Positions 3,311 to 33,678 of a stretch of DNA of 34,050 nucleotides are shown piece after piece (the first letter of the stretch is position 1; each line of letters starts with the position of its first letter). The notes beneath the pieces are model-generated. The model made no database searches, was not told the origin of the DNA, and saw nothing but the letters and a program-made list of their open reading frames with translations. A program made the translations under genes and the position numbers. The stretch spans positions 1-34,050 of the forward strand of contig JACZJL010000052.1 of assembly GCA_014860585.1 (NCBI GenBank). The letters are read 5' to 3'. Origin of the DNA: Bacteroidales bacterium (GTDB lineage: Bacteria; Bacteroidota; Bacteroidia; Bacteroidales; 4484-276).

Positions 3311-3739
3311 TTATCTCATCATTTTTGTGTGCATCCCTATAATGACAATGACTGCAACCGCGATTGACATGTTGAGCGGGTCATACACCTTGAAAAAGAA
3401 AATCAGCACTGCAAGCATAATGGCCTGAGCGGATGCATAGAAATAAAACCCCATTTTTTTCATCAACCATAGCAAAATCAATCCAAAAAGGGAAATACTG
3501 AAGATAATCGCGCCGGAAAGTGTGATGGCAAGTGCTGTATAATCAGGGAGTAAAACCTGTTTAAAATATTGCTGTAAAACGTCCAGCACAATTTCCTTCG
3601 AAAATAACCCGACCACCATGACAATCAGCAGCAATACATTGTATGCAAAAGAGAAGATCAATAAAATTGACAGGCCCAGGGATCGTCGTTTATTCAGTTT
3701 CTCAACCGGCTTCATTTCAAGGTGATCTTGCTGTTCCAT
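3311..3739 (-). CDS. Small four-helix membrane protein (paralogue of the next gene upstream)
   Basis: The 142-residue protein has a charged N-terminal tail and four predicted membrane helices at about residues 20-46, 68-92, 97-116 and 122-138. The second and third helices are joined by LLWLMKKMGFYFYASAQ, which matches the motif LMWQLRKIGFHFYTASQ at the same place in the neighbouring gene, so the two are tandem paralogues that have diverged strongly elsewhere. The family seems common in Bacteroidota but I know of no function. It sits 15 bases downstream of its paralogue and 14 bases upstream of an HD hydrolase gene, so it is probably co-transcribed with both. Confidence 0.8.
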   Translation of the reverse strand: MEQQDHLEMKPVEKLNKRRSLGLSILLIFSFAYNVLLLIVMVVGLFSKEIVLDVLQQYFKQVLLPDYTALAITLSGAIIFSISLFGLILLWLMKKMGFYFYASAQAIMLAVLIFFFKVYDPLNMSIAVAVIVIIGMHTKMMR

Positions 3740-3754
3740 AGTAGTTTATTATAA

Positions 3755-4192
3755 CTAACTCATTAATTTCAGAAATCTTGAATAGAACAAAATGAAGATG
3801 GCAGTTATTGACGCTTCCAGCAATGGAAAAGGAAACCCTTTTATGTAAACGACAGGTAGCAGCACCAGCATGATCTGTGAAGCAGTATAAAAATGGAATC
3901 CTATTTTCCGGAGTTGCCACATCAGGCTTGCACCCACCAATGATAAAAAATAGAGGATAAAGCCGGTGAGAAAAAAATTCCTTCCTGCTGATGCAAAAAG
4001 CTCCATTCCAGGCACTATGCTGCCAAATTCTTTCATCAACGGGAGTGCCTCTTCATAAGAAAAGTAAATCATCAGGAAAGAAATGTTACTCATTCCGCTT
4101 CCTATGAAAGTAAGGATACAGAGTGCAGTGAGCCAGTTAGGGCGTGTCTGCTTACCGCTGGGTTGTCCGTTTTCACCTTTAAGTTCATTCAT
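3755..4192 (-). CDS. Small four-helix membrane protein (paralogue of the next gene downstream)
   Basis: This 145-residue protein has a hydrophilic N-terminal tail (Lys, Gly, Gln, Pro rich, about 18 residues) and four membrane helices near residues 20-45, 73-92, 98-116 and 124-141. The loop between helices two and three carries the motif LMWQLRKIGFHFYTASQ, shared with the adjacent paralogue. Its start codon overlaps the stop of the RelA/SpoT-like HD gene by four bases (ATGA type), which implies translational coupling. A possible role is a membrane partner or sensor for one of the flanking hydrolases; that is inference from gene order only. Confidence 0.82.
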   Translation of the reverse strand: MNELKGENGQPSGKQTRPNWLTALCILTFIGSGMSNISFLMIYFSYEEALPLMKEFGSIVPGMELFASAGRNFFLTGFILYFLSLVGASLMWQLRKIGFHFYTASQIMLVLLPVVYIKGFPFPLLEASITAIFILFYSRFLKLMS

Positions 4193-4755
4193 TGCCTTTC
4201 CATCCCTCTTTTGTAAGTTTCAAGGTAGAGTCTGCGCCGTTCTACGAGGTCTTTTACTTCGATGGCCATGAATTCGTTGACTTCCTGTGCCATGGGGTAA
4301 ATATATTTCATTGACTGGTCGAGATAGCTGGCCATTTTTTCTTCAATAATCACATCCAGATGCAGATCGGTAAGGTTGCTGATGCGATCAGCTACTTTAA
4401 GGATTTTGGCTTCCTTTGAGCCATCATTTAGAATTTTAATCAGGTAATCTTCTTTAGCTTCACCCGGCATTCTGGTCACTTCTTCCACGAGTTTAACAAC
4501 ACGTTTTCCATCTGTCAGCTCCATGATTTCCAATTTGTTGGTTTCCGGAATATCCTCAAACAGGTCATGTATAAGAGATGCTTTAAGCAGCACATGATCG
4601 GTGTAATGGTAATCTATCAGAATAGTGAAGGTGGCCATCATGTGCCTGAACTGGTTCCCCCCAACCTTTCGGGCTTTTCCTATCAGCGCTGTGGCCTTCT
4701 GAATGTAGGGCGCAACGATCAGTTGTATGAGTTCCTCTTTTTCTCTGTCTTCCAT
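4189..4755 (-). CDS. Small RelA/SpoT-like HD hydrolase (MESH1-type, possible (p)ppGpp hydrolase)
   Basis: The 188-residue protein has the complete metal-binding set of the RelA/SpoT hydrolase domain: His38 in FRHMM, His63-Asp64 followed by Glu67-Asp68 in IHDLFEDIP, and Asp123/Asn127 in KVADRISNL. Spacing between these motifs agrees closely with human/fly MESH1, and VVKLVEEVT also matches that family. No synthetase, TGS or ACT domain follows, so it belongs with small alarmone hydrolases. Known members remove the 3'-pyrophosphate of (p)ppGpp; MESH1 also acts on NADPH, so the substrate here is open. It is cytoplasmic by sequence. Its stop overlaps the start of a membrane protein gene, and it lies 62 bases after the hutH-like gene. 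Confidence 0.8.
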   Translation of the reverse strand: MEDREKEELIQLIVAPYIQKATALIGKARKVGGNQFRHMMATFTILIDYHYTDHVLLKASLIHDLFEDIPETNKLEIMELTDGKRVVKLVEEVTRMPGEAKEDYLIKILNDGSKEAKILKVADRISNLTDLHLDVIIEEKMASYLDQSMKYIYPMAQEVNEFMAIEVKDLVERRRLYLETYKRGMERQ

Positions 4756-4817: not shown

Positions 4818-6341
4818 TTACTCCAACGAACCAATAACTTTCTCAACCTCTTCAAGTATCTCGCATGATTTAACCAGCTTTTTCATGGCATTATGATCGT
4901 CATAAAGCGGACGGTCAACATCGAGAAACTCCACATGCCGGCGCACAACCTCTTTTGCCTTGGTTGTCCCCTTGCCAAAGTTATACTCCCTGAAATCGAG
5001 TGCCTGAGCGGCAGCCATGATTTCAATCCCAAGTATTCCATAAGCATTGTCGAGTATCTGGAAATTCTTAATGGCTGTGTTCATCCCCATGGACACGAAA
5101 TCTTCCTGATCGGCGGCAGCCGGAATAGATTGGATAGAAGCAGGGGCACTCAGGATGCGTTGTTCAACAATTTGCATATCTGCGGTGTACTGACTGAGCA
5201 TAAGACCGGAAAACATACCTGCTCCTTTGGTGAGGAAAGCGGGTAATCCCACACTCAGGGCCGGATTATTCAACCGGTTCATCCGCCGTTCTGACATCAC
5301 ACTAACCATCGTTATGGCTATCCCGGCCATATCCATTGGGAGCGAAACGGGTGAACCCTGGAAGTTGGCGCCCGTGAGCTGGAGGTTTTCCTCTGCGAAA
5401 AAGATCGGGTTATCGCCAACGCCGTTCAATTCGATCTCAACCTGAGAGCGGGCATAAGCCAATGCATCATGCGCTGCCCCGATCACCTGGGGGGTTGAGC
5501 GCATTGAATACGCATCCTGTACCTTACATTTCACCCTTTTTTCGGCCAGGTCGCCACCAGCAACCATTTTCCTGATGGCTTCTGCACTGCGAACCGCACC
5601 TTTGAAACCACGTACTTCGTGGAGTTTTGCTTCATAAGGTCTCATATTGGCTTTGAGTGCTTCCAGTGACATGGCAGCAGCTATTTCAGCTTGCTTGAGC
5701 CAACGGTTGGCGTCATAAAGAAAAATCGCACTCATGGCAGTCAACACATTTGAACCGTTGATTGTGCCCAGGCCATCACGTGCTTTTAGCCCGGGAACCG
5801 GAATTCCGGCTTTATCCATAGCCTCTTTTCCACTGTACAATTCCCCTTTAAAATAGGCACGCCCCTCACCCATCATCAGCAGTGCAATTTGCGACATGGG
5901 GGCAAGGTCTCCGCAGGCGCCAACCGATCCTTTATCACAAACCCAGGGGGTTACTCCCTTGTTAAGCATCTCAACCAAAGTCTGGGTGATTTCCGGACGT
6001 ATTCCGGAGTTGCCATGTGCATGGACATTGATACGCCCAAGCATGGCTCCGCGCACATACTCTTCGTGCAATGGCTCTCCAATGCCGGCGGCATGGTTGT
6101 AAATGAGGTACTTTTGGAAATCCTTTACCTGGTCGTCGGTGAGTACAACCTCCGAAAATTCGCCAATGCCGGTATTTACGCCATACATAATTTCGCCAGC
6201 AATGATTTTCTTTTCCAGCATCGCCCGGCACTTTTTTATCCGTTCGATGGCATCAGGGTGCAATTCAACCCTTTCATGATGTCGTGCAACGTTCACCACA
6301 TCTTCAATTTTCAGGTTTGATCCTGTAATAATAAGTGTCAT
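4818..6341 (-). CDS. hutH: Histidine ammonia-lyase family protein with an unusual Ala-Cys-Gly cofactor motif
   Basis: The 507-residue protein aligns over its full length with MIO-dependent aromatic amino acid ammonia-lyases. Recognisable active-site positions, which coincide with Pseudomonas putida HutH numbering, are Tyr53 (MYGVNTGIG), His83 (YNHAAGIG), INGSN near residue 195, QDAYSMRSTPQ, and QEDFVSMG near the C-terminal third. The family removes ammonia from histidine to give urocanate, or acts on Phe/Tyr in other subfamilies. Two departures stand out: the MIO precursor triad is Ala142-Cys143-Gly144 instead of Ala-Ser-Gly, and the usual HutH QEDH is QEDF. His83 favours histidine as substrate, the Phe is less typical, so specificity is uncertain. 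No hutU, hutI or formiminotransferase gene is in the window. It is the first gene of a possible six-gene minus-strand operon. The ATG at 6341 gives the usual family length. Confidence 0.88.
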   Translation of the reverse strand: MTLIITGSNLKIEDVVNVARHHERVELHPDAIERIKKCRAMLEKKIIAGEIMYGVNTGIGEFSEVVLTDDQVKDFQKYLIYNHAAGIGEPLHEEYVRGAMLGRINVHAHGNSGIRPEITQTLVEMLNKGVTPWVCDKGSVGACGDLAPMSQIALLMMGEGRAYFKGELYSGKEAMDKAGIPVPGLKARDGLGTINGSNVLTAMSAIFLYDANRWLKQAEIAAAMSLEALKANMRPYEAKLHEVRGFKGAVRSAEAIRKMVAGGDLAEKRVKCKVQDAYSMRSTPQVIGAAHDALAYARSQVEIELNGVGDNPIFFAEENLQLTGANFQGSPVSLPMDMAGIAITMVSVMSERRMNRLNNPALSVGLPAFLTKGAGMFSGLMLSQYTADMQIVEQRILSAPASIQSIPAAADQEDFVSMGMNTAIKNFQILDNAYGILGIEIMAAAQALDFREYNFGKGTTKAKEVVRRHVEFLDVDRPLYDDHNAMKKLVKSCEILEEVEKVIGSLE

Positions 6342-7068: not shown

Positions 7069-7920
7069 ATGACCCCGTCAAAGTCCAAAATTGGTTTATC
7101 GATTTTTACTGCATTTTTTACTTTCCTGCTATTTGTTTCTTGTTCCGACGATAAAGATCAACCAGAAGCGGAAACCGGTAGTATTGAATTCACATTTACA
7201 CATTACGTTGACAACGAGCCGCTGCAAATTGACACGATGAAATATGTCAATGCAGCAGGGAATCATTACCTGGTGAACGAAATTCAATATTTCATTTCAG
7301 ATGTAAAATTGCATAATAGCAATGGCAATTATCTTTTAATTGATGACTGGAACACCATCCATTACGTGGACACCGACTTGCCTGAGACCCATACCTGGAA
7401 GGTTTACGATCCAATAGCGACGGGTGATTACCAGAAAATTTCCTTTATTTTTGGTATTTCAGAAGAAAAAAATCAAAGCCTGATGTTTGTGAATCCACCT
7501 GAGCGGGACATGTTCTGGCCTGAGATTTTGGGCGGGGGCTACCATTATCTTAAACTCAACGGTAAGTGGATGGCTGCCAACCGGCAAGTATTGCCATTTA
7601 ATTTTCACCTCGGTATTGGCCAGATATACTCTGGTGGAGTCATTGTTCCCGATTCGATCACCGGTTTTATTCAAAACTATTTTGAGGTGGAACTGCCAAA
7701 CTCAGCCTTCAACATTGCTAAAGGTGAGTCACTGCAATTGGAGATCAGAATGAATGTGGCCAACTGGTTTCAACACCCGCACATCTACAATCATGACGAA
7801 TGGGGAGGTGACATTATGCAAAACCAGGCAGCCATGAAGATTGGGTGTGAGAATGGTAAACAGGATGTATTTTCGCTAATACTAAAATCTGATCTTGTTA
7901 TTAATCATAAAACAGATTGA
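7069..7920 (+). CDS. MbnP-family copper-associated lipoprotein
   Basis: The 283-residue protein starts with a signal peptide ending LLFVSC (Cys25), so it is a predicted lipoprotein. The mature part matches the MbnP family as I know it: a first strand SIEFTFTHYVDNEPL, then YLVNEIQYFISDV, a central DMFWPEILGGGYHYLKLNG region, and a C-terminal segment ANWFQHPHIYNHDEWGGD with clustered His and Asp. In the methanotroph system MbnP is a copper protein whose Trp is converted to kynurenine by the di-haem enzyme MbnH. The next gene, starting 14 bases downstream, encodes an MbnH-like enzyme, which supports the call. Candidate modified tryptophans include Trp150 and Trp167; the sequence alone does not show which. 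The ATG at 7069 gives a complete signal peptide. Confidence 0.85.
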   Translation: MTPSKSKIGLSIFTAFFTFLLFVSCSDDKDQPEAETGSIEFTFTHYVDNEPLQIDTMKYVNAAGNHYLVNEIQYFISDVKLHNSNGNYLLIDDWNTIHYVDTDLPETHTWKVYDPIATGDYQKISFIFGISEEKNQSLMFVNPPERDMFWPEILGGGYHYLKLNGKWMAANRQVLPFNFHLGIGQIYSGGVIVPDSITGFIQNYFEVELPNSAFNIAKGESLQLEIRMNVANWFQHPHIYNHDEWGGDIMQNQAAMKIGCENGKQDVFSLILKSDLVINHKTD

Positions 7921-7934
7921 ACCGAGGCTTAATT

Positions 7935-9095
7935 ATGAACCATAAACAGAAAAATAGAAAGACTTTTTTCCATTGTTTTCAATTTCAGGATCAACAACTT
8001 GTGTCAGGAAGGTTAGCAATGATATTTTTGGCCCTCTTTTTTCTCTTCTCCTGCTCCGAAACGAACAATCCGGAGCCTTACTCTCCGACATCTTACCAAA
8101 TTGAAATCCCTTATGGTTTTCCAACCAATCTGAATGTTCCTGAAGATAACCCCATGACAGTTGAGGGCATCGAACTTGGAAGAATGTTGTTCTATGATGG
8201 CCGTCTGAATGGCCGCACCCATCCAGATTCGCTGATGAGTTGCGCTACGTGCCATAGGCAGGAAAACAGTTTTGAAGTGGGTCTCCCCCGGCCTCATCCT
8301 TTCGGGATTACAGGACAAGCCACTCATCACGCCATGTTGCCACTGATTAATCTGGTGTGGAACATGGGAAATTATGGATGGAATGGGAGTGTCGGCTCCA
8401 TTGAAGCTGATGTAACCGGCGTAATTTATGATCCTTCAGAATTTGACTCAACTCCTGAAAAGGTTGTAAACACAATAAAAAGTATTGACGGCTATCCGGA
8501 GCTTTTTCAAAAAGCCTTCGGAACCAACGAAGTAACAGCTGACGGTATCGCAAAAGCGATAGCTCAATTTGTCAGGACATTGATTTCGGCCAACTCGAAA
8601 TTTGACCGGTACATGCGCGGTGAGTACCAGCTTAGTCCTGAAGAACTACGCGGCTTTGTGCTGTTCACAACCGAGGAGGGCGCTGACTGCTTTCATTGTC
8701 ATGGCGGGTTTGGCAATCCATTGTTTACAACAAATCTTTTTTACAACAATGGCAAAGACACCGAATTTAATGATCCGTCCGACCGTTACAGCATCACGGG
8801 TAACCCTGCTGATAAAGGGGCTTATAAGGCTACAACCCTGCGAAACATCGAACTGACCGGCCCTTATATGCATGATGGCCGTTTTGCAACCCTCGATGAA
8901 GTGATTGAATTTTACTCCCACCACGTTCAAAATTCACCCTACATTGACCCGCTCATGCACCATGTAGCCAACGGCGGTATTCAACTTACCCCAAATGAAA
9001 AAACCGACCTGATGGCATTTATCAAAGCTCTGAAAGATGAAACGTTTTTGACCAACCCTGATTTTGGTAAACCCGATAATTTGCCGGGACTTTAA
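7935..9095 (+). CDS. MbnH-like di-haem cytochrome c peroxidase/MauG family lipoprotein
   Basis: Two CxxCH haem c sites are present, CATCH (8248-8262) and CFHCH (8688-8702), spaced as in bacterial cytochrome c peroxidases and MauG. Other family marks are GRMLFYDGRLNG before the first haem, RTLISANSKFDRY between haems, and TLRNIELTGPYMHDGRF near the C terminus. The hydrophobic stretch IFLALFFLFSC is a lipobox, so the enzyme should sit in a membrane facing the periplasm. Paired with MbnP, it probably oxidises a Trp of that partner. Start choice is uncertain: a TTG at 7917 overlaps the mbnP-like stop, ATG 7935 is used here, and GTG 8001 (giving a short lysine/arginine-led signal peptide) or ATG 8019 behind AGGAAGG are also credible because the n-region from 7935 is unusually long. 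Confidence 0.87.
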   Translation: MNHKQKNRKTFFHCFQFQDQQLVSGRLAMIFLALFFLFSCSETNNPEPYSPTSYQIEIPYGFPTNLNVPEDNPMTVEGIELGRMLFYDGRLNGRTHPDSLMSCATCHRQENSFEVGLPRPHPFGITGQATHHAMLPLINLVWNMGNYGWNGSVGSIEADVTGVIYDPSEFDSTPEKVVNTIKSIDGYPELFQKAFGTNEVTADGIAKAIAQFVRTLISANSKFDRYMRGEYQLSPEELRGFVLFTTEEGADCFHCHGGFGNPLFTTNLFYNNGKDTEFNDPSDRYSITGNPADKGAYKATTLRNIELTGPYMHDGRFATLDEVIEFYSHHVQNSPYIDPLMHHVANGGIQLTPNEKTDLMAFIKALKDETFLTNPDFGKPDNLPGL

Positions 9096-18041: not shown

Positions 18042-18063
18042 AAATCATTAATTATCGGTGAAA

Positions 18064-20352
18064 ATGAAGAAATTACAATTGATTGTCCTCTTTTTTTGGT
18101 TTATTGCAACCAATGGTTTCAGCCAGGAATTTTATAACATCAATGTGATCAATACCATCGAAATCGAGTTTGAAGAAGAAAACTGGAACCAGATTTTGCA
18201 CCAGCTTGTTGCCAATGGTCTTGAAGAACGATTGGTGGGATTGGCAATCATCAATGGCGTAAGTTACGACAGTGTGGGGGTGCGTTACAAAGGCAACAGC
18301 TCTTACAGTCCTAACAGGGTTAAAAATCCCCTCAACATCAAACTGGATTACATCATTGATGACCAAAAACTTGATGGTTATGGCACCCTGAAACTGTCCA
18401 ACGGATTCAAAGATCCCAGTCTGGTGCGCGAAACACTGGGCTATGAAATTGTCCGAAAGTACCTGCCTGCCAGCCTTTCCAATTATGCCAATGTGTACAT
18501 CAACGGTTTACATTTAGGGCTTTATACCAGCAACCAGGATGTGGATAACTTCTTCATGCATACGCACCTTGGTGTGAGCGACAAAGCACGGATAAAAGGC
18601 GAGATGTCTGGGCCTAACCAGGGTGTATGGAAATACCTTGGTGCTGATTCGGCAATTTATGCTACTCAGTATCAACTCGAATCGGATTATGGCTGGTTAA
18701 AGCTGGTGAATTTCATTGACACGCTGAATAACCATAACGAGCATGTGGAAAATTTGCTGAACGTGGATCGTTTGCTGTGGATGCTGGCTTACGATATTTT
18801 GTTGGTTAATCTTGACGCGCCTGTTAACATGCCCCAGAACTATTATCTTTTTGAAGATTTGGCCGGCAGATTCAATATCATTCCCTGGGATTTGAACGAA
18901 ACCTTTGGCGTATTTGCCAGTGTTGCCGGTGGCCAGCCCCTTAATCTTTACCAGCTGCAGACGCTTGACCCTTTTTTCAATATCAACAACATCAATTACC
19001 CAATCATCAACAAAATCCTGAATAATCAGCGGTACAAAAGAAGTTACATTGCCCACATGAAGACGATTCTTGAAGAGCTGTTTGCAAGCGGCTGGTATCT
19101 CCAACGGGCATTGGAAATTCAGGCCATCATTGATCAGGCGGTTCAAAACGATCCAAACAAATTATACACCTACGAACAATTTCTGAACAACATTCACAAT
19201 ACTGTGGGAGGAGGTCCGCCGCCCAACCAGATGCCTGTTCCGGGGATTACCCAGGTTATGGAAACACGTATTCAATTCCTGAACAACCATCAATGGTTTC
19301 AGGCCATCGCTCCTGAGATCACAAATATTGAATATTCACCCGAACTTATCAATGCCGGCGATGAAATTTGGATAAAGGCACAGGTAGAAAGTGCTACCCT
19401 TGTGGAACTGGCTTACCGATCTGAAAATAGCCCGGTTTTTCAAAGGGCGCCAATGTTTGATGATGGCAACCACAATGACGGGCTTGCAGGCGACGGTATT
19501 TTCGGAGTTTCGGTAATTGCTGGATATACTGAAATTATCTATTTTATTTTCGCCGAAAACAGCGTGGCAGCCTCTTTTTCTCCAGAACGCGCAGAATATG
19601 AATTCTATAAAATCCCTGTTTTAAGTGGCTTGGTGATTAATGAGTTTATGGCCGATAATGTTTCAATTGTAACTGACCAGGATGGAGATTATGATGACTG
19701 GATTGAGCTATTTAACAACGGCACAGAAACCCTTAACCTTGAGGGCTATTTTCTAAGCGACAAATTGGATCAACCAGACAAATGGGCATTTCCGGATACA
19801 ACCATCTCACCCGGAGGATTCCTCATCGTTTGGGCCGACGAGGATTTAGAACAAGTCGGGCTTCATGCTGATTTTAAACTTTCAAAATCAGGAGAAAGCA
19901 TACTCTTGTCAAATCCAGAACTCGAAGCGGTGGATGTGCTCACTTTTGGCCAGCAGCAAACCGATATCTCGACGGGAAGATTCCCGAACGGAACCGGAGA
20001 ATTCATTTTAATGATCCCAACTTTTGGTGTAGAGAATGTTGATATTCTGACCAATGGTGATGAGCCGGATATTAGCAGTCATCTTTCAATGGAAGTCTTT
20101 CCAAACCCTTTCGGCAATAGCCTGAGTATTACATTTGATATTGATCAGAATGCCCAAATAAGTTTGGTAATGATGAATCTCTTCGGGCAGTCAAAAATGA
20201 TCATTAATAACCTCAGCCTGCCTTCCGGTACTCACAAGTACCAAATCGAAACCACGACTCTTCCTCCTGGTTTATGGATTGTCAGGTTGGCCGCCAATGG
20301 TCGCATAAATGATGATATTATGGTTAAAGCCATAAGATATCAAACACCGTGA
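18064..20352 (+). CDS. Secreted CotH-kinase-like protein with lamin-tail domain and T9SS sorting domain
   Basis: ATG 18064 gives a Sec signal peptide (KKLQLIVLFFWFIATNGFSQ); a GTG two codons earlier is possible. The 762-residue product contains a CotH domain at about residues 25-400 with VRYKGNSSYS, LKLSNGFKDPSLVRETLGYE, YINGLHLGLYT and IPWDLNETFG; the last corresponds to the active-site region of CotH spore-coat protein kinases. A spacer domain follows (APMFDDGNHNDGLAGDGIFG), then a lamin-tail domain near 520-640 (LVINEFMADN, DWIELFNNGTE, SPGGFLIVWADED) and a T9SS type A C-terminal signal (VFPNPFGNSLS to the end). It should be secreted by type IX secretion. Kinase activity on an extracellular protein is family knowledge, not shown. 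It shares its lamin-tail/T9SS tail with the first gene of the window. Confidence 0.92.
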   Translation: MKKLQLIVLFFWFIATNGFSQEFYNINVINTIEIEFEEENWNQILHQLVANGLEERLVGLAIINGVSYDSVGVRYKGNSSYSPNRVKNPLNIKLDYIIDDQKLDGYGTLKLSNGFKDPSLVRETLGYEIVRKYLPASLSNYANVYINGLHLGLYTSNQDVDNFFMHTHLGVSDKARIKGEMSGPNQGVWKYLGADSAIYATQYQLESDYGWLKLVNFIDTLNNHNEHVENLLNVDRLLWMLAYDILLVNLDAPVNMPQNYYLFEDLAGRFNIIPWDLNETFGVFASVAGGQPLNLYQLQTLDPFFNINNINYPIINKILNNQRYKRSYIAHMKTILEELFASGWYLQRALEIQAIIDQAVQNDPNKLYTYEQFLNNIHNTVGGGPPPNQMPVPGITQVMETRIQFLNNHQWFQAIAPEITNIEYSPELINAGDEIWIKAQVESATLVELAYRSENSPVFQRAPMFDDGNHNDGLAGDGIFGVSVIAGYTEIIYFIFAENSVAASFSPERAEYEFYKIPVLSGLVINEFMADNVSIVTDQDGDYDDWIELFNNGTETLNLEGYFLSDKLDQPDKWAFPDTTISPGGFLIVWADEDLEQVGLHADFKLSKSGESILLSNPELEAVDVLTFGQQQTDISTGRFPNGTGEFILMIPTFGVENVDILTNGDEPDISSHLSMEVFPNPFGNSLSITFDIDQNAQISLVMMNLFGQSKMIINNLSLPSGTHKYQIETTTLPPGLWIVRLAANGRINDDIMVKAIRYQTP

Positions 20353-27624: not shown

Positions 27625-30600
27625 TTACTCAACCACTACCCTGATCCCTTGTGAATGCGATGAAAACTCGGGTGCGTACATACATTGGATGGTAGATATG
27701 CCGTTGGAGAAATTACCTGTTTGTGAAGCCACCAAAGGATATTCAAATACATAAACACCTTTCCGCAGGTAATCGAAGAAGAAGTTGGTGGCGGCATCAC
27801 GGGTGCTTTGGTAGTAACCGAGCCCGCCTTTGTATTTGTAGCCGGACAGAACATTGACCGGCTCGAATGCCGAAGCCCGCATGTCCTGCATGTGAACGAA
27901 TTCCATGTCACGGTCAATCCGCAGTTCAATCCGGACGACAACTTTCTCGCCGATCCTGAGTTTATCCCCATCATTTAATGGCTCCAGTATAGTTCCTTCA
28001 GGTTTGTTCCGCTCGACAAACAGCTCTTTTTTGAGCGAAAGTGGAGTTTCATGCGCAGTGATTTTATCCAGGTTTTCAAAATACTGCCAGTAAACGGCTC
28101 CCCAGGCTATCCCTTCGTCGGTTTTGGTCACGCTGATATTTCCCATTTGCGGAGTAATTTCGCCTTTACTCCACGAAGTCTGGAAATAACCGGTCCCTGC
28201 CTCAATCTGGCCAACATCTTTAGTATCCAGTTTTTTACCTGCCATCTCAATTTCCACCAACTTATCGCTTGCAAGCAGGTCGGAACCACGCCTGATAAGG
28301 GCATAAACTGCCTCTACTGTTGCCCGGCTGGTTTTCCAATCTTGTGTTTGCTTCTGTTTTAGCAACCAAATTTTCATCTGGTCAACAGCATTTTTATCGC
28401 CTGCAACTTCGTCAAAAGCCTCAATCATCATGGCTTGCGTTTCAACCGGCGATTGATACCAGAAGTAACCCCGGTCAAGTTTCCAGTACATACCCATTTC
28501 TTCATTTTTGAGTGACCGCTCCCTCAGCGATTTAATGATGAGTGGCGGAACATCCCGATTTTCATAACGGGTAAGTGCAATGGCCAACATCCCTTGCAGG
28601 TATATGTTTTGCTTTTGCCAGTATTTACCCGCCTGGGTTTTGAAATAATTAAATGCCGTCTCGCTGTTTGGATTCATCATGATAAATGAAAAAAAGCTGC
28701 GGGCATACAGGAACTGAATATGTGTTGCCGAGAGGTGGTCTTCATCCATTTTATCCTTATTGTATTTGAGGATTTCCTCATAATCTTCCCTGATGCGGTC
28801 ATCCAGATAACGCACCGCCTTGCTCATCATCCTGTTGACCCGTTCATCACCCAGAGCATCAATAATACGCATCTGGTGCAACTTTCCAAGTCCTTCCACC
28901 ACATTTTGAGTGATATAGCGGCTGTCGGGCATCCCTTCAAACCAGGGGAACCCTCCGTTGGGAGATTGCATTTGCGATAACATCCTGATGGTTGCATCCA
29001 ACCGGTTGTTCATATTGTTCAGGTCGAAAAGCAAGGCAACCCGCTGTTTACGTTCAGCTTCGCTGCGGGCCTGCAAGATCCAGGGTGTTTGTTCCAGTAG
29101 TAAAGCTTTGAGGTCCTGGTTCTTTTCCAGGTTCGAAAGAAAGGTTTCGGGGGTCTGGTTCTTCCAGCTATCGAACACCCGTTTGATCTTTGGATTGGCA
29201 TTGGCCATGAAAAAGGCAATACTGTTGGCGTAAAAAGCGGCAAATACCGACAGCGTGTTTTTGTGGATGGGTTCAGCAATCACAGGCAATGCCTGAATGG
29301 CGTACCATGCGGGATTCGAAGTAAACTCAATAGTCAGGTTCTGATGCTTCAGCGATGTACTTTTATCAGAATCGACAAGTTTTTCAAACCGGAAAGTCTT
29401 CGTCCCAATGCCATTGATTGGCATTGGCAACGACTCAGTAACCAGCATTCTGTTTGGCAGCACCGGGATCGACTTTTCCTCACCATCGGTATAATTTCCT
29501 GCGGTGGCTTTTATACGGTAAGTGATCACCCCATAATCTTCAGGGATAATGATCCGCCATTTGACTGAGGTACTCCGGTTGGCTTCGATAGTAAAATTAT
29601 GGTTATCATTAACTATTTGAAGTTGTTCGTTAATGGGTTGCATGGAAACGGCATCAAAAAATTCAATTGTCGTTGTTCCATTCAGTGCTTCATCCGAAAG
29701 ATTGGTAATTCTTGACGAGAACTGAAGCGTGTCACCCATCCTGAAAAAGCGTGGTGCATTTGGCATCACCATCAGCTTTTTACTGGCCGTAAATTCCTGT
29801 TCGAGCATTCCGGTCATCAAATCCCTGGTATAACCCAATCCCATGAACCGCCATCGGGTAAAAGATTCTGGCAGTGTGAAGCTGATCACTACTTCGCCCT
29901 GCTCGTTGGTTTGTAATTCCGGGTAAAAGAAAGCAGTTTCGTTGAAGTCCCTTCTGACCTGCATTTCATCAAAAACAGTTTTAGCCTTTGGAGGTTCTGC
30001 AGGGGGAGGGGTTACAACACCTGAGCTACTTTCCATCTCTTCCATTTTCAATTCTACCCCCGAATCCATCGAAACATCCATCTCATTTGCTACTGCCATT
30101 CTCGATTTTGGGCCTCCTTCTCCAAGTGAATAAAACATATCAAAACCCATTTCATTAAACCCAAACCAGTTCAGCCGGTCGTATTCATTGATGTTATATG
30201 ACTTGTACTGCCGTAGGGCAAAATCCCACCGGTTTCCTCTTGATACCGAAATGCACCCAAATGACTGCCATGGCGTGATCTGGCCATACTGATGATAAAT
30301 ATCGAAACTCCAGCCATGAGGGACAAAAGCATCGAGCGATGCATCGTACATCGAAGCAAGCATCTGTGCCACCACCTGCTCACCCTTTTTGTTCCTGATA
30401 GTGACTTTCCATTCTTCGCGACTACCTGGCTCCAACTGGCTGCGGAACGTTTCAAAGGCAAGGTCGAGTTGCTTGTTGGTGTAAGGAACGGTAATAATCA
30501 TCGAATTTTTGAATTCTCTTCCGGCGATTACATAAGTGATCTGTACAGAGAAATTCCCTCTGTACTCTTCTTTAATCGGAACTTTTATATGTTTTTGTTC

Positions 30601-33600
30601 TCTGTCGAGCGTAAGCCATTCACGGCTAATCGTTTTCCCCCGATGCTGCACTTCATAAAGTGCCTTTATACTGCGGGCGGCTGTACCGATAAGGAAAGCG
30701 GCTTCTTCGCCCGGCTCGCCGGATGATTTCAAAGGGGTGAACCAGGAGTATTCGATGAGTGGCGGCTGTTTGTCGGCAGGGCTGAAGACAGTAAAAAATT
30801 TCAGGGTTTCCACCGGATTCCCAAATACATCAGTCGCTGTAAGTTTTATTGAATACTTTCCTGCCTTCCAGGTTGAAAGATTTTCGGGATTCAGCAGCGA
30901 ATCGGTTTTGGTATTCAGTGTTTTAGAAAATACGATTTCAACTTTTTCCCACTTTTCAGGGTTTGTTTCATCGCTATATATCCGATCAGGAAAATCCAAA
31001 CTAAAAGTTTCTTGATCCATTAAAAAGAAATCAGGCTTTCCCCAGAGCCGGTCAATATAGAGTTTACCCGGGTCTTTGAGTAATGAAATTTCTGCTTTTA
31101 CTGTTGTTTCCTGTTTTACTCCGTTTAAGTTAACGGATTCAAGATTAAATTTTTGTTTAACAGAACGATCGAGTTTTTCAGGGATATCCACGTTGAGGAA
31201 AAGCGCGTCATAGCCAACGGATACACTATGTTCGCCAGCCTGAGTTTCGCCACTGACATCGGTTACTGATGCATACACCGTGTATTGGAAAACCGGCTTA
31301 TGATCCCGGCTTAACGACTGATCAGGAATGGCATTGAAACTTATGTTGAATTTTCCATTCCCGTCGGTAATGGTTTCACCAGAGAGCAATTCCATCTCTG
31401 GTGAATCCGGGAAAAAGCCGCGATAATACATCCATCTGTAAGGGAAAGTACTCCGGCGAACGACCCGGTATTTAACATTCGCGCCGTCGATCACATTTCC
31501 TGCATATCCTTTCACTGTTCCGTCAACTGTGACTTCGGTGTTGAGCTTGAAACTACCGGTTACCGGTTCGAAAGTCACTTCAAAAGTGGGTCTTTTATAA
31601 TCTTCTACACTGAAAACGGCGCTTCCGGAGCTGTTCCTGATGGTCATCTGGCCGTTGAGCATTCCGGTCGGAATTGTAAACGAACCATTCACGGCGCCAT
31701 ATTCGTTTGTTTTGAGATCCAGGGCTGAAATCATTTGATAGTTGACATCAAAAAACTCAATCCGGGTGGGGTGTCCTGCTTTAATCTCCTGCTTATCTCC
31801 GGTTCTTTCCAAAACAATGGCTTTGAAATAAACTGTCTGTCCCGGGCGATAAATAGCCCTGTCGGTAAAAAAGAAAGTCCTCAGTTCAGGTCTGGCCTCA
31901 ATTCCTCTTTGTGGCCCGACATAGAAATTAGATGCAGGGAAAAATACATCGTCTTTTTGAATAAATTCCAACGTAACCGTGGCATTTCCTTGAGTATTGA
32001 CAGGCTCAATCCTGAAATAACCATTGCGATCAGTGGTGTAGGTTTTCATGAGATTGTCGATGTATTCCCTGGTTTTGAAATCGTAATCGCGGGTAAAAGC
32101 TCTTACGGTTACATCGCGCAGCGGGGTTCCTTTCCCGCGGTCGAGCACATAAAACTCATGTCCGCCATTTTCCATGCGCTGAGCGATGAATGTCAGTTTT
32201 GTCTCCCAGAAATCAGCCCAGGCCACTTCGGCGTCTTTGCCGTTAAAACTCTCGCTGCCAGATGCCATCAGGATGTAGAAACCGTTGCTGAGTGCTGGGA
32301 TTTTGAATTCGGTGGAATGGTTCTGGAAGTCCAATTCGTTGGGGACAACAAGCTGCCAGGTTTGTTCGGGCTGGATTTTCAATAACCTTGTAGCCAGGTC
32401 GGCGGCAGGCACCCTCCAGGCAATTTTCTGGTATTCACGATAATCCATCCTGATCAACCGGAAATAGATTTTACTGTAATTTCTCCAATTCAGTAAGCCA
32501 ACAGAGGGCTTTCCGGGTAAATTGGCAAATTCAGTCTGAAGAGATAGGCCGGGCTTGACAAGTTCATCAACTAGAATCCGGCAATTTTCAGCGCCCGCCG
32601 ATGTCGGAAATTTTTTGATGGCTTCCTCGCAAATCTCGACCGCTTTTTTACGTTCCCATCGAAAATCATCACCAGTTTGCGGGTTATATTTTCCAGCCTG
32701 CATTTCGTGATATTTGGCCAGTTCAAACGACACATCTGCTGAATGTTCTGAAGTATTATATTTCTGTTTAAGGCTGGTCAGTGCATTGAAATAAAGTCCG
32801 TCAGCATTGTCAATAACGGCATTAGCCCTGATAAACTCAAGGCGTTTCAGGTCTGCGTCAATCAATGCCTGCGGGTTTTTATCGCCAAGGTGAAATTTCA
32901 ACAATTGCTGGTAAATAATGATGATCTGTGCGGTGAAAGTGCTTTCCCTGTTTTCGGGTCTCGTTAGGTTGATAAACCGCCCGGCACTAGCGAAATAGTC
33001 AGGGTTGTCGGGTTTAAACTGGTCGGCAGCAACCGTTATTCCTGACTCTCCCGAAGCAAAAAAATCGATGGCCCGGTAAGCCAGGAAATCAAAAAGGGTA
33101 GGTCTGAATAATTTGGAATCTTTTTTCTCCTCCAGAATGGCTGAGAAAGCGTTCAGATCAATTTCCTGAAGTTGCTCGGCAGGCTTGATGGAAGCCTTGT
33201 AGTGTGCAGCGGCTGTTGAGAGCAAAGTGTGCGCATCCCAGGTTCGGAAATCTTCACCGGGAACACCTTGTATTCTTCCTCTATCCATAATCTGGTAACG
33301 GTTGACCTGGAAATAGCGCATGTACAGGTCGCCCAGTATCGAATGTAAAATCTCCTGTCCGGGGAAAGTGGCCGTTTCGATCTCTTTTTTTGTGTTTTCG
33401 ATCACTTTGTACAAATGATCTTCTTCAAAATCTGCCATCAGTTTAATGCGATACAAATTGGCCTTAATTATCTGCGGAGTATTTTGCCCGTCCTTTGCCA
33501 TCCGATAAACATCGTCGACAATTTCAAGGGCTGAGCGGGGTTGGCCAATATTGGCGAGTGAATCAACCTTTTTCCAGTTCTCAGCAAAATCGTTTTCCAT

Positions 33601-33678
33601 GGGGGGTTTGTTTGCGGTGATAAAAATGATCAGAGCGATAATAGCTGCTGCGAGCAACGCCGGTTTCAATAACTTCAT
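27625..33678 (-). CDS. Large alpha-2-macroglobulin-like envelope protein without the thioester motif
   Basis: The 2017-residue protein starts with KLLKPALLAAAIIALIIFIT, an uncleaved anchor or signal peptide without a lipobox Cys. Residues about 30-380 are helical repeat-like. The macroglobulin part follows: TDRAIYRPGQTVYFKAIV near 610 (MG2-like), several beta-domains, an acidic Met/Ser/Pro-rich stretch before PPPAEPPKAK (around 1210-1235, bait-like), and the A2M core (AFFYPELQTNEQGEVVISFT, FTRWRFMGLGYT). The thioester domain is present (about 1430-1850, with QMQSPNGGFPWFEGM, SRATVEAVYALI), but where relatives have CxEQ the protein reads Asn1474-Thr-Leu-Ser1477. Bacterial A2Ms trap proteases in the periplasm, often with a PBP1C partner; none is present here. 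It would act as a non-covalent trap or in another way. Length is normal for Bacteroidota A2Ms. Monocistronic. Confidence 0.9.
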   Translation of the reverse strand: MKLLKPALLAAAIIALIIFITANKPPMENDFAENWKKVDSLANIGQPRSALEIVDDVYRMAKDGQNTPQIIKANLYRIKLMADFEEDHLYKVIENTKKEIETATFPGQEILHSILGDLYMRYFQVNRYQIMDRGRIQGVPGEDFRTWDAHTLLSTAAAHYKASIKPAEQLQEIDLNAFSAILEEKKDSKLFRPTLFDFLAYRAIDFFASGESGITVAADQFKPDNPDYFASAGRFINLTRPENRESTFTAQIIIIYQQLLKFHLGDKNPQALIDADLKRLEFIRANAVIDNADGLYFNALTSLKQKYNTSEHSADVSFELAKYHEMQAGKYNPQTGDDFRWERKKAVEICEEAIKKFPTSAGAENCRILVDELVKPGLSLQTEFANLPGKPSVGLLNWRNYSKIYFRLIRMDYREYQKIAWRVPAADLATRLLKIQPEQTWQLVVPNELDFQNHSTEFKIPALSNGFYILMASGSESFNGKDAEVAWADFWETKLTFIAQRMENGGHEFYVLDRGKGTPLRDVTVRAFTRDYDFKTREYIDNLMKTYTTDRNGYFRIEPVNTQGNATVTLEFIQKDDVFFPASNFYVGPQRGIEARPELRTFFFTDRAIYRPGQTVYFKAIVLERTGDKQEIKAGHPTRIEFFDVNYQMISALDLKTNEYGAVNGSFTIPTGMLNGQMTIRNSSGSAVFSVEDYKRPTFEVTFEPVTGSFKLNTEVTVDGTVKGYAGNVIDGANVKYRVVRRSTFPYRWMYYRGFFPDSPEMELLSGETITDGNGKFNISFNAIPDQSLSRDHKPVFQYTVYASVTDVSGETQAGEHSVSVGYDALFLNVDIPEKLDRSVKQKFNLESVNLNGVKQETTVKAEISLLKDPGKLYIDRLWGKPDFFLMDQETFSLDFPDRIYSDETNPEKWEKVEIVFSKTLNTKTDSLLNPENLSTWKAGKYSIKLTATDVFGNPVETLKFFTVFSPADKQPPLIEYSWFTPLKSSGEPGEEAAFLIGTAARSIKALYEVQHRGKTISREWLTLDREQKHIKVPIKEEYRGNFSVQITYVIAGREFKNSMIITVPYTNKQLDLAFETFRSQLEPGSREEWKVTIRNKKGEQVVAQMLASMYDASLDAFVPHGWSFDIYHQYGQITPWQSFGCISVSRGNRWDFALRQYKSYNINEYDRLNWFGFNEMGFDMFYSLGEGGPKSRMAVANEMDVSMDSGVELKMEEMESSSGVVTPPPAEPPKAKTVFDEMQVRRDFNETAFFYPELQTNEQGEVVISFTLPESFTRWRFMGLGYTRDLMTGMLEQEFTASKKLMVMPNAPRFFRMGDTLQFSSRITNLSDEALNGTTTIEFFDAVSMQPINEQLQIVNDNHNFTIEANRSTSVKWRIIIPEDYGVITYRIKATAGNYTDGEEKSIPVLPNRMLVTESLPMPINGIGTKTFRFEKLVDSDKSTSLKHQNLTIEFTSNPAWYAIQALPVIAEPIHKNTLSVFAAFYANSIAFFMANANPKIKRVFDSWKNQTPETFLSNLEKNQDLKALLLEQTPWILQARSEAERKQRVALLFDLNNMNNRLDATIRMLSQMQSPNGGFPWFEGMPDSRYITQNVVEGLGKLHQMRIIDALGDERVNRMMSKAVRYLDDRIREDYEEILKYNKDKMDEDHLSATHIQFLYARSFFSFIMMNPNSETAFNYFKTQAGKYWQKQNIYLQGMLAIALTRYENRDVPPLIIKSLRERSLKNEEMGMYWKLDRGYFWYQSPVETQAMMIEAFDEVAGDKNAVDQMKIWLLKQKQTQDWKTSRATVEAVYALIRRGSDLLASDKLVEIEMAGKKLDTKDVGQIEAGTGYFQTSWSKGEITPQMGNISVTKTDEGIAWGAVYWQYFENLDKITAHETPLSLKKELFVERNKPEGTILEPLNDGDKLRIGEKVVVRIELRIDRDMEFVHMQDMRASAFEPVNVLSGYKYKGGLGYYQSTRDAATNFFFDYLRKGVYVFEYPLVASQTGNFSNGISTIQCMYAPEFSSHSQGIRVVVE

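Follow-up and report, generated by a model that had tools for sequence, protein, structure and literature searches.

In this work, a second HutH-like aromatic amino-acid ammonia-lyase of Bacteroidota was characterized in which the middle residue of the MIO-forming triad (residue 143) is either cysteine or serine, has switched repeatedly between the two, and is surrounded by otherwise invariant catalytic residues. The gene lies in a 34,050-nucleotide stretch of DNA from a Bacteroidales bacterium (assembly GCA_014860585.1, contig JACZJL010000052.1), which was analyzed as a whole and is called the window below. HAL* is our label for the subfamily to which the gene belongs, a second and strongly conserved group of ammonia-lyases in Bacteroidota. 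We consider it highly probable that HAL* is a working histidine ammonia-lyase whose MIO methylidene residue can be either Cys or Ser. The gene and the residues on which this reading depends are located in the window as follows.

4818..6341, minus strand: HAL* gene, second HutH-like aromatic amino-acid ammonia-lyase, 507 aa (PF00221, PRK09367)
6183..6185, minus strand: Tyr53, catalytic, in 201 of 201 HAL* rows
6093..6098, minus strand: Asn82-His83, Asn-His in 201/201 HAL* and Ser-His (the "SH motif") in 53/53 HutH
5910..5918, minus strand: Ala142-Cys143-Gly144, at the place of the MIO-forming Ala-Ser-Gly, residue 143 aligned with Ser143 of P. putida HAL
5757..5759, minus strand: Asn195 of the INGSN block, from the alignment, invariant in 201/201 HAL*
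5499..5519, minus strand: QDAYSMR block with Gln275, Tyr278 and Arg281 (Q277, Y280 and R283 of P. putida HAL), 201/201
5361..5363, minus strand: Phe327 (F329 of P. putida HAL), 201/201
5352..5354, minus strand: Ser330, covarying with residue 143 as the strongest of 133 and of 123 columns
5097..5108, minus strand: Gln412-Glu413-Asp414-Phe415, QEDF in place of the HutH QEDH, Glu413 being E414 of P. putida HAL, 201/201

The open reading frame (6341-4818) is an intact Lyase_aromatic gene of 507 aa, and codons 142-144 on the minus strand are GCC (5918-5916), TGC (5915-5913) and GGA (5912-5910), giving Ala-Cys-Gly within KGSVGACGDLAPMSQ. Re-reading of the locus returned exactly the cysteine codon and the triad given in a preliminary description of this DNA, and Tyr53, His83, INGSN, QDAYSMR, QED and the final Phe of QEDF were all found as described there. 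A sequencing error or a pseudogene was ruled out, because the Cys recurs in many other genomes and the frame is intact. The window protein matches the PF00221 profile over its full length (537 bits, profile positions 1-465 of 466) and reaches 535.4 bits with PRK09367, the NCBIfam histidine ammonia-lyase subfamily, above the cut-off of 524. Among three further HAL* proteins, L075 passes this cut-off (535.1), and L136 (512.2) and L308 (518.4) fail it. Its score for the hutH equivalog TIGR01225 is 509.6 bits, below the cut-off of 539.15, which counts against histidine, and at the place where Ser is expected as the middle residue of the MIO triad it has Cys143.

The AlphaFold2 model, built from 29 sequences, has a mean pLDDT of 90.8 and a pTM of 0.92, and the best 39 rows of a VIA-align fold search with it were all MIO enzymes matched over the whole length (Z 34.6-47.5). 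The top folds were tyrosine aminomutase (2ohy, Z 47.5), T. acidophilum HAL (7tqr, 46.0), ergothionase (6s7j, 46.0) and P. putida HAL (1gkj, 45.3), with about 500 residues of the two HAL structures aligned at 1.9-2.0 Å. The fold search supports a predicted MIO-enzyme fold, not a substrate. Compared with HutH (P. putida HAL 1B8F/1GKM; T. acidophilum HAL 7TQR), HAL* is alike in family, length, fold, catalytic residues and the genomic link to urocanase, but its residue 143 is Cys or Ser, Asn82 replaces Ser82, and QEDF replaces QEDH. It shares the MIO family and the fold with tyrosine 2,3-aminomutase and the flexirubin-type tyrosine ammonia-lyase, but the window protein is far below the cut-offs for TIGR03832 (365 bits, cut-off 501) and NF053541 (332.8 bits, cut-off 700), and the QEDFVS of HAL* is replaced by NQDIVS or NQDVVS in the TAL-like proteins of relatives. 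The ergothionase of Treponema denticola (6S7J) resembles it in fold and by phmmer (3.2e-68), with a sequence score for the window protein below that of HAL (233.9 vs 332.9 bits). Sequence cut-offs and gene neighbours count against ergothionase, aminomutase and TAL identities; the fold search cannot separate these. A third PF00221 type, resembling the flexirubin-type tyrosine ammonia-lyase, was seen in L117, L124, L127, L129, L131, L132 and L137, with GASGDLVQL (GSSGDLVQL in L129), NQDIVS or NQDVVS, and Ser at the triad in 7/7.

HAL* shares 32-36% identity with the canonical HutH found in its order. A search of genome contigs found at least 80 HAL* loci (L033-L112) at about 84-92% identity to that of the window, and of those listed 44 have Cys and 36 have Ser. 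The titles of six of these records (L054, L059, L079, L085, L093, L106) name archaea, Alphaproteobacteria, Deltaproteobacteria or Zixiibacteriota, with HAL* about 84-86% identical to the window's; they are possibly mislabelled or contaminated bins, or cases of recent transfer. For a census, 393 genomes from the order of the window were searched with a DNA pattern whose middle codon was NSN, so Thr, Ala, Gly, Pro, Arg and Trp were also permitted. The pattern matched 123 genomes, and one (G040, GASGDFTTM) was excluded as a chance match. Of the remaining 122 HAL* genes, 68 encode Cys at residue 143 and 54 encode Ser, and none has another residue; the codons are TGC (37), TGT (31), Ser TCN (34) and Ser AGY (20). 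The canonical HutH pattern has matches in 199/393 genomes, and among the 150 matches listed the MIO serine is TCN in 138 and AGY in 12, with no Cys. These 12 AGY genes among the 150 listed (G173, G356, G042, G347, G281, G089, G170, G062, G186, G277, G083, G297) are switches of serine codon set at the catalytic residue in which no Cys was seen. Phylum-wide, the Cys pattern matched 29/395 genomes, all 29 of them with HAL* (the window's and 28 others at 67-80% identity); the 28 rows, having been retrieved by the Cys pattern, were excluded from the Cys:Ser counts. Cys at residue 143 is confined to HAL* within the one order and the one phylum sampled.

Residue 143 was masked to build a tree with 94 HAL* rows, on which parsimony counts 14 changes between Cys and Ser; at least four changes of the Cys label are forced by the well-supported branches alone. 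It was a quick tree of 101 rows, and the duplicates L116, L119, L120, L121 and L125 and the partial copy L023 were left out. Larger sets require 23 changes (201 rows) and 24 changes (174 rows), so residue 143 has switched repeatedly between Cys and Ser, with 14-24 switches by parsimony. A single origin of Cys was rejected, as forcing the Cys rows into one clade made the lnL worse by 184 (p-AU 0.000123). The closest Cys/Ser pair is 94.7% identical and differs at this codon by one base (AGC vs TGC). The label is still clustered, and the nearest neighbour has the same residue in 183/200 rows. In a three-state codon model, TCN-Cys, Cys-AGY and direct TCN-AGY changes are all required. Therefore, the two serine codon sets are not bridged by Cys alone: the lnL is -121.2 without the direct TCN-AGY change and -110.8 with it (10.4 units), and the 12 AGY and no Cys among the 150 HutH matches listed also disfavour a Cys-only bridge. 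The need for a direct TCN-AGY change even in the best three-state model, where single-base steps alone are insufficient, would fit another explanation, in which two or three old alleles were spread by gene transfer, so that Cys and Ser became mixed without repeated mutation. We regard such transfer as improbable, because the tree is one of the HAL* protein without residue 143; whole-gene transfer would not part label from tree, and the mismatch would take very short conversion tracts.

The variation at residue 143 stands in an otherwise fixed active site. Y53, H83, N195, Q275, Y278, R281, F327 and E413 are invariant in 94/94 and in 201/201 full-length HAL*, as are N82, E61 and F415 in 201/201, and the HAL-type catalytic set (Y53, H83, N195, Q277, Y280, R283, F329 and E414 in P. 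putida numbers) is complete. By comparing the 25 loci with both genes, the mean pairwise identity of HAL* (85.7%) is higher than that of HutH (67.1%), and it is higher in 300/300 pairs. The invariant catalytic residues together with this identity indicate strong selection on the gene, with residue 143 varying only between Cys and Ser, which agrees with the earlier impression from the sequence that the enzyme is probably functional. The preliminary description had also suggested that the Cys perhaps brings a different specificity; a substrate tied to Cys is not supported, as Ser-type and Cys-type proteins have identical pocket residues. The pocket of HAL* differs from that of HutH at fixed positions, namely F59I, E61, S82N, T197S, Q198N, P279A (query 277), H330Q (query 328) and H416F (query 415). 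As to histidine, the Met at GkHAL position 380 has been linked with histidine ammonia-lyase (PMC11432326), and the equivalent residue, taken as P. putida 382 by alignment, is Met in 201/201 HAL*. The same source links the Ser-His motif with histidine recognition (PMC11432326); its absence from HAL* (Asn-His in 201/201) and the Phe after QED both count against histidine.

The preliminary description noted that the window has no other hut genes, which added to its doubt about the substrate. The absence is correct for the window but not for the genome, which contains a second, ordinary hutH with a TCC serine codon (contig C137, cut by the contig end), hutU on C131, and hutI and ftcD both on C12, so a doubt about histidine on this ground is not supported. 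Co-occurrence with urocanase was compared in 80 HAL*-positive genomes chosen from the 122 (at least 90% complete, one or a few per genus) and 80 HAL*-negative genomes from the remainder of the 393. A score of at least 595 bits was taken as HutH, our own limit within the gap from 559 to 599.8; two genomes with HutH fragments (G057 and G211, both with urocanase) were excluded, and the urocanase fragments of G180 and G016 were scored as present. Urocanase was found in 40/42 genomes having HAL* without HutH, which span 27 family codes (Cys type 27/28, TCN 12/13, AGY 1/1). It was found in 34/36 genomes with both genes, 39/42 with HutH only, and 3/38 with neither. The Fisher p for HAL*-only genomes against those with neither is 9.5e-17, and for the Cys type alone 4.3e-14, for genomes that share ancestry and are not independent. 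Two HAL*-only genomes without urocanase (G068, G027) count against histidine. In G069, G082 and G099, urocanase was found and neither HutH nor HAL*; G099 has a PF00221 protein of 490 bits.

The gene neighbourhood was compared across HAL* loci. A hisS gene lies no more than 8 kb upstream of HAL* in 50/98 loci (representative TIGR00442, 419.6 bits), and a HutH-type gene is directly or second upstream in 26/98, the 98 loci including five duplicate genomes (L116, L119, L120, L121, L125). Neither neighbour is present around HAL* in the window. No hutU, hutI or ftcD was found beside HAL* at E 1e-20 or 1e-5 in 109 loci (L033-L141), many of them short or cut by contig ends, in which the control query HAL* matched 109/109. 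Downstream of HAL* in the window lie three genes.

4189..4755, minus strand: HD_4-domain protein (RelA/SpoT-like hydrolase fold, PF13328), next downstream
3755..4192, minus strand: small membrane protein, first of two paralogues (cluster c1, no Pfam match)
3311..3739, minus strand: small membrane protein, second paralogue (cluster c1, no Pfam match)

The HD_4 gene (cluster c11) adjoins HAL* in 10 loci, of near relatives only, and the small membrane protein is a frequent downstream neighbour (57/98 loci). SusC/SusD-like genes (clusters c3 and c4) follow HAL* in about 30 loci; this naming is our own reading, and the SusD-like representative had no NCBIfam match. Upstream of HAL* in the window, on the opposite strand (7069-9095), is a copper-linked pair of an MbnP-like protein and an MbnH/MauG-like di-haem enzyme, and such a pair (clusters c93 and c94) also adjoins HAL* in L118, of the same genus. 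The window further encodes two secreted proteins that contain Lamin Tail Domains and end in T9SS-type C-terminal sorting signals (38-1975 and 18058-20352, plus strand), one with beta-helix repeats and one with a CotH kinase, the second signal being just below the Pfam cut-off, and a bacterial alpha-2-macroglobulin-like protein of 2017 aa (27625-33678, minus strand).

Several of these observations could also be read as signs that HAL* forms MIO from Cys or Ser and acts on another histidine-like or aromatic substrate (a histidine derivative, or in an aminomutase reaction), urocanase being there otherwise. The fixed pocket differences from HutH, the downstream SusC/SusD-like genes and the presence of tyrosine aminomutase and ergothionase besides HAL among the nearest folds would fit such a substrate. 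HutH also stands alongside HAL* in 36/80 genomes, and therefore HAL* could have another role there. On the other hand, urocanase is equally frequent in HAL*-only and HutH-only genomes, hisS and hutH recur upstream of HAL*, and the invariant residues include His83 and Glu413, which we take to be the imidazole side of the HAL pocket. Another substrate is thus unlikely, and histidine is probably the substrate of HAL*.

MIO is made by ring closure between Ala142 and Gly144, after which the leaving group of residue 143 is lost. We hypothesize that in HAL* the chain folds and the Gly144 amide attacks the Ala142 carbonyl, so that the ring closes, and that residue 143 would then shed H2S (Cys) or H2O (Ser) to give the same didehydroalanine-derived MIO. 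As both routes would give the same MIO, the mature active site should be identical. The MIO would take the amino group of L-histidine, urocanate and ammonia would be released, and the urocanate may feed the hutU-hutI-ftcD pathway. Only the discarded atom would differ between the two types, and therefore selection would tolerate either Cys or Ser and the codon could be switched many times; the same product from Ser and Cys would also account for only these two residues occurring here and interchanging. The neighbouring residue 330 (Ser/Thr) may adjust to the residue in use at 143. The preliminary description had proposed that a natural Cys could still give MIO, and this is consistent with only Cys and Ser occurring among the 122 genes beside invariant catalytic residues, and with the urocanase kept in 27/28 Cys-type genomes without HutH. 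The S143C mutant of P. putida HutH is also reportedly active; it has the same Ala-Cys-Gly, but it is a laboratory mutant, whereas the Cys of HAL* is natural, widespread and interchanging with Ser. A serine-to-alanine exchange at the MIO triad caused a more than thousandfold loss of activity (PMC3903478). Where reviews treat the triad, its middle residue is given as Ser only (PMC9002059, PMC3903478), in line with which Cys143 might stay uncyclised, leaving Cys-type proteins inactive or with a thiol used in other chemistry. This is very improbable, because the remainder of the protein is strongly conserved, Cys exchanges freely with Ser and no third residue is seen, and the Cys-type HAL*-only genomes have urocanase. 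The reported activity of S143C likewise speaks for cyclisation.

Residue 330 is the candidate partner of residue 143. By comparing dependent and independent two-trait models over 133 variable columns, column 330 was first (likelihood ratio 53.7; next 33.6; median 10.4), with column 330 left in the tree. When the phylum-wide rows were removed (174 rows) and columns 143 and 330 were both masked, it was again first, of 123 columns (46.3; next 25.5; median 8.2). The covariation rests on likelihood models and quick trees in which background columns also give sizable ratios, and therefore the link is judged by rank and not by the chi-square value. In the 174 rows, Cys143 occurs with Ser330 in 79/96 and Ser143 with Thr330 in 60/78, and the window protein pairs Cys143 with Ser330. 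The link is weak in other classes, where 27 Cys rows have Ser330 in 12 and Thr330 in 15, and the correlated-change test on well-supported branches had only five independent pairs, too few for significance. Residue 330 lies three positions past Phe327, the F329 of P. putida HAL, of which the mutants F329A and F329G were crystallised according to the structure titles. In HutH, position 330 is Gln or Glu. The F329A and F329G mutants are said to have been made for a study of cyclisation, and autocatalytic cyclisation in HAL was reportedly the subject of Baedeker and Schulz in 2002. Residue 330 may influence MIO formation, and the fixed pocket differences, including position 330, are candidates for why the HutH listed never shows Cys. 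We doubt the more specific idea of alternating selection, in which the Cys type releases sulfide (or holds its thiol until folded or reduced), MIO formation is tuned to redox or sulfide, and Ser330 or Thr330 in the active-site wall is matched to it.

Published accounts call the serine in the middle of the MIO triad strictly conserved (PMC3903478), or give the triad with Ala, Ser, Cys or Thr in the first place and Ser fixed in the second (PMC9002059). The literature searched, mostly outside subscription journals, yielded no natural Ala-Cys-Gly MIO enzyme. The kind of enzyme is known, with histidine ammonia-lyase as its most likely function, and the natural Cys/Ser variant is new. The reported laboratory precedent makes the variant less surprising, and its scale, the repeated switching and the covariation with residue 330 make it more so. 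Within one orthologous family, Cys and Ser occur in roughly equal numbers with the rest of the active site untouched, which suggests a catalytic residue that can vary freely because only the discarded side-chain atom differs. The natural matched pairs, up to 94.7% identical, could be used in studies of MIO formation, with the second-shell residue as a target for tests. Moreover, annotation rules requiring Ser would wrongly label HAL* enzymes as inactive, and HAL* is likely the histidase of many Bacteroidota without HutH.
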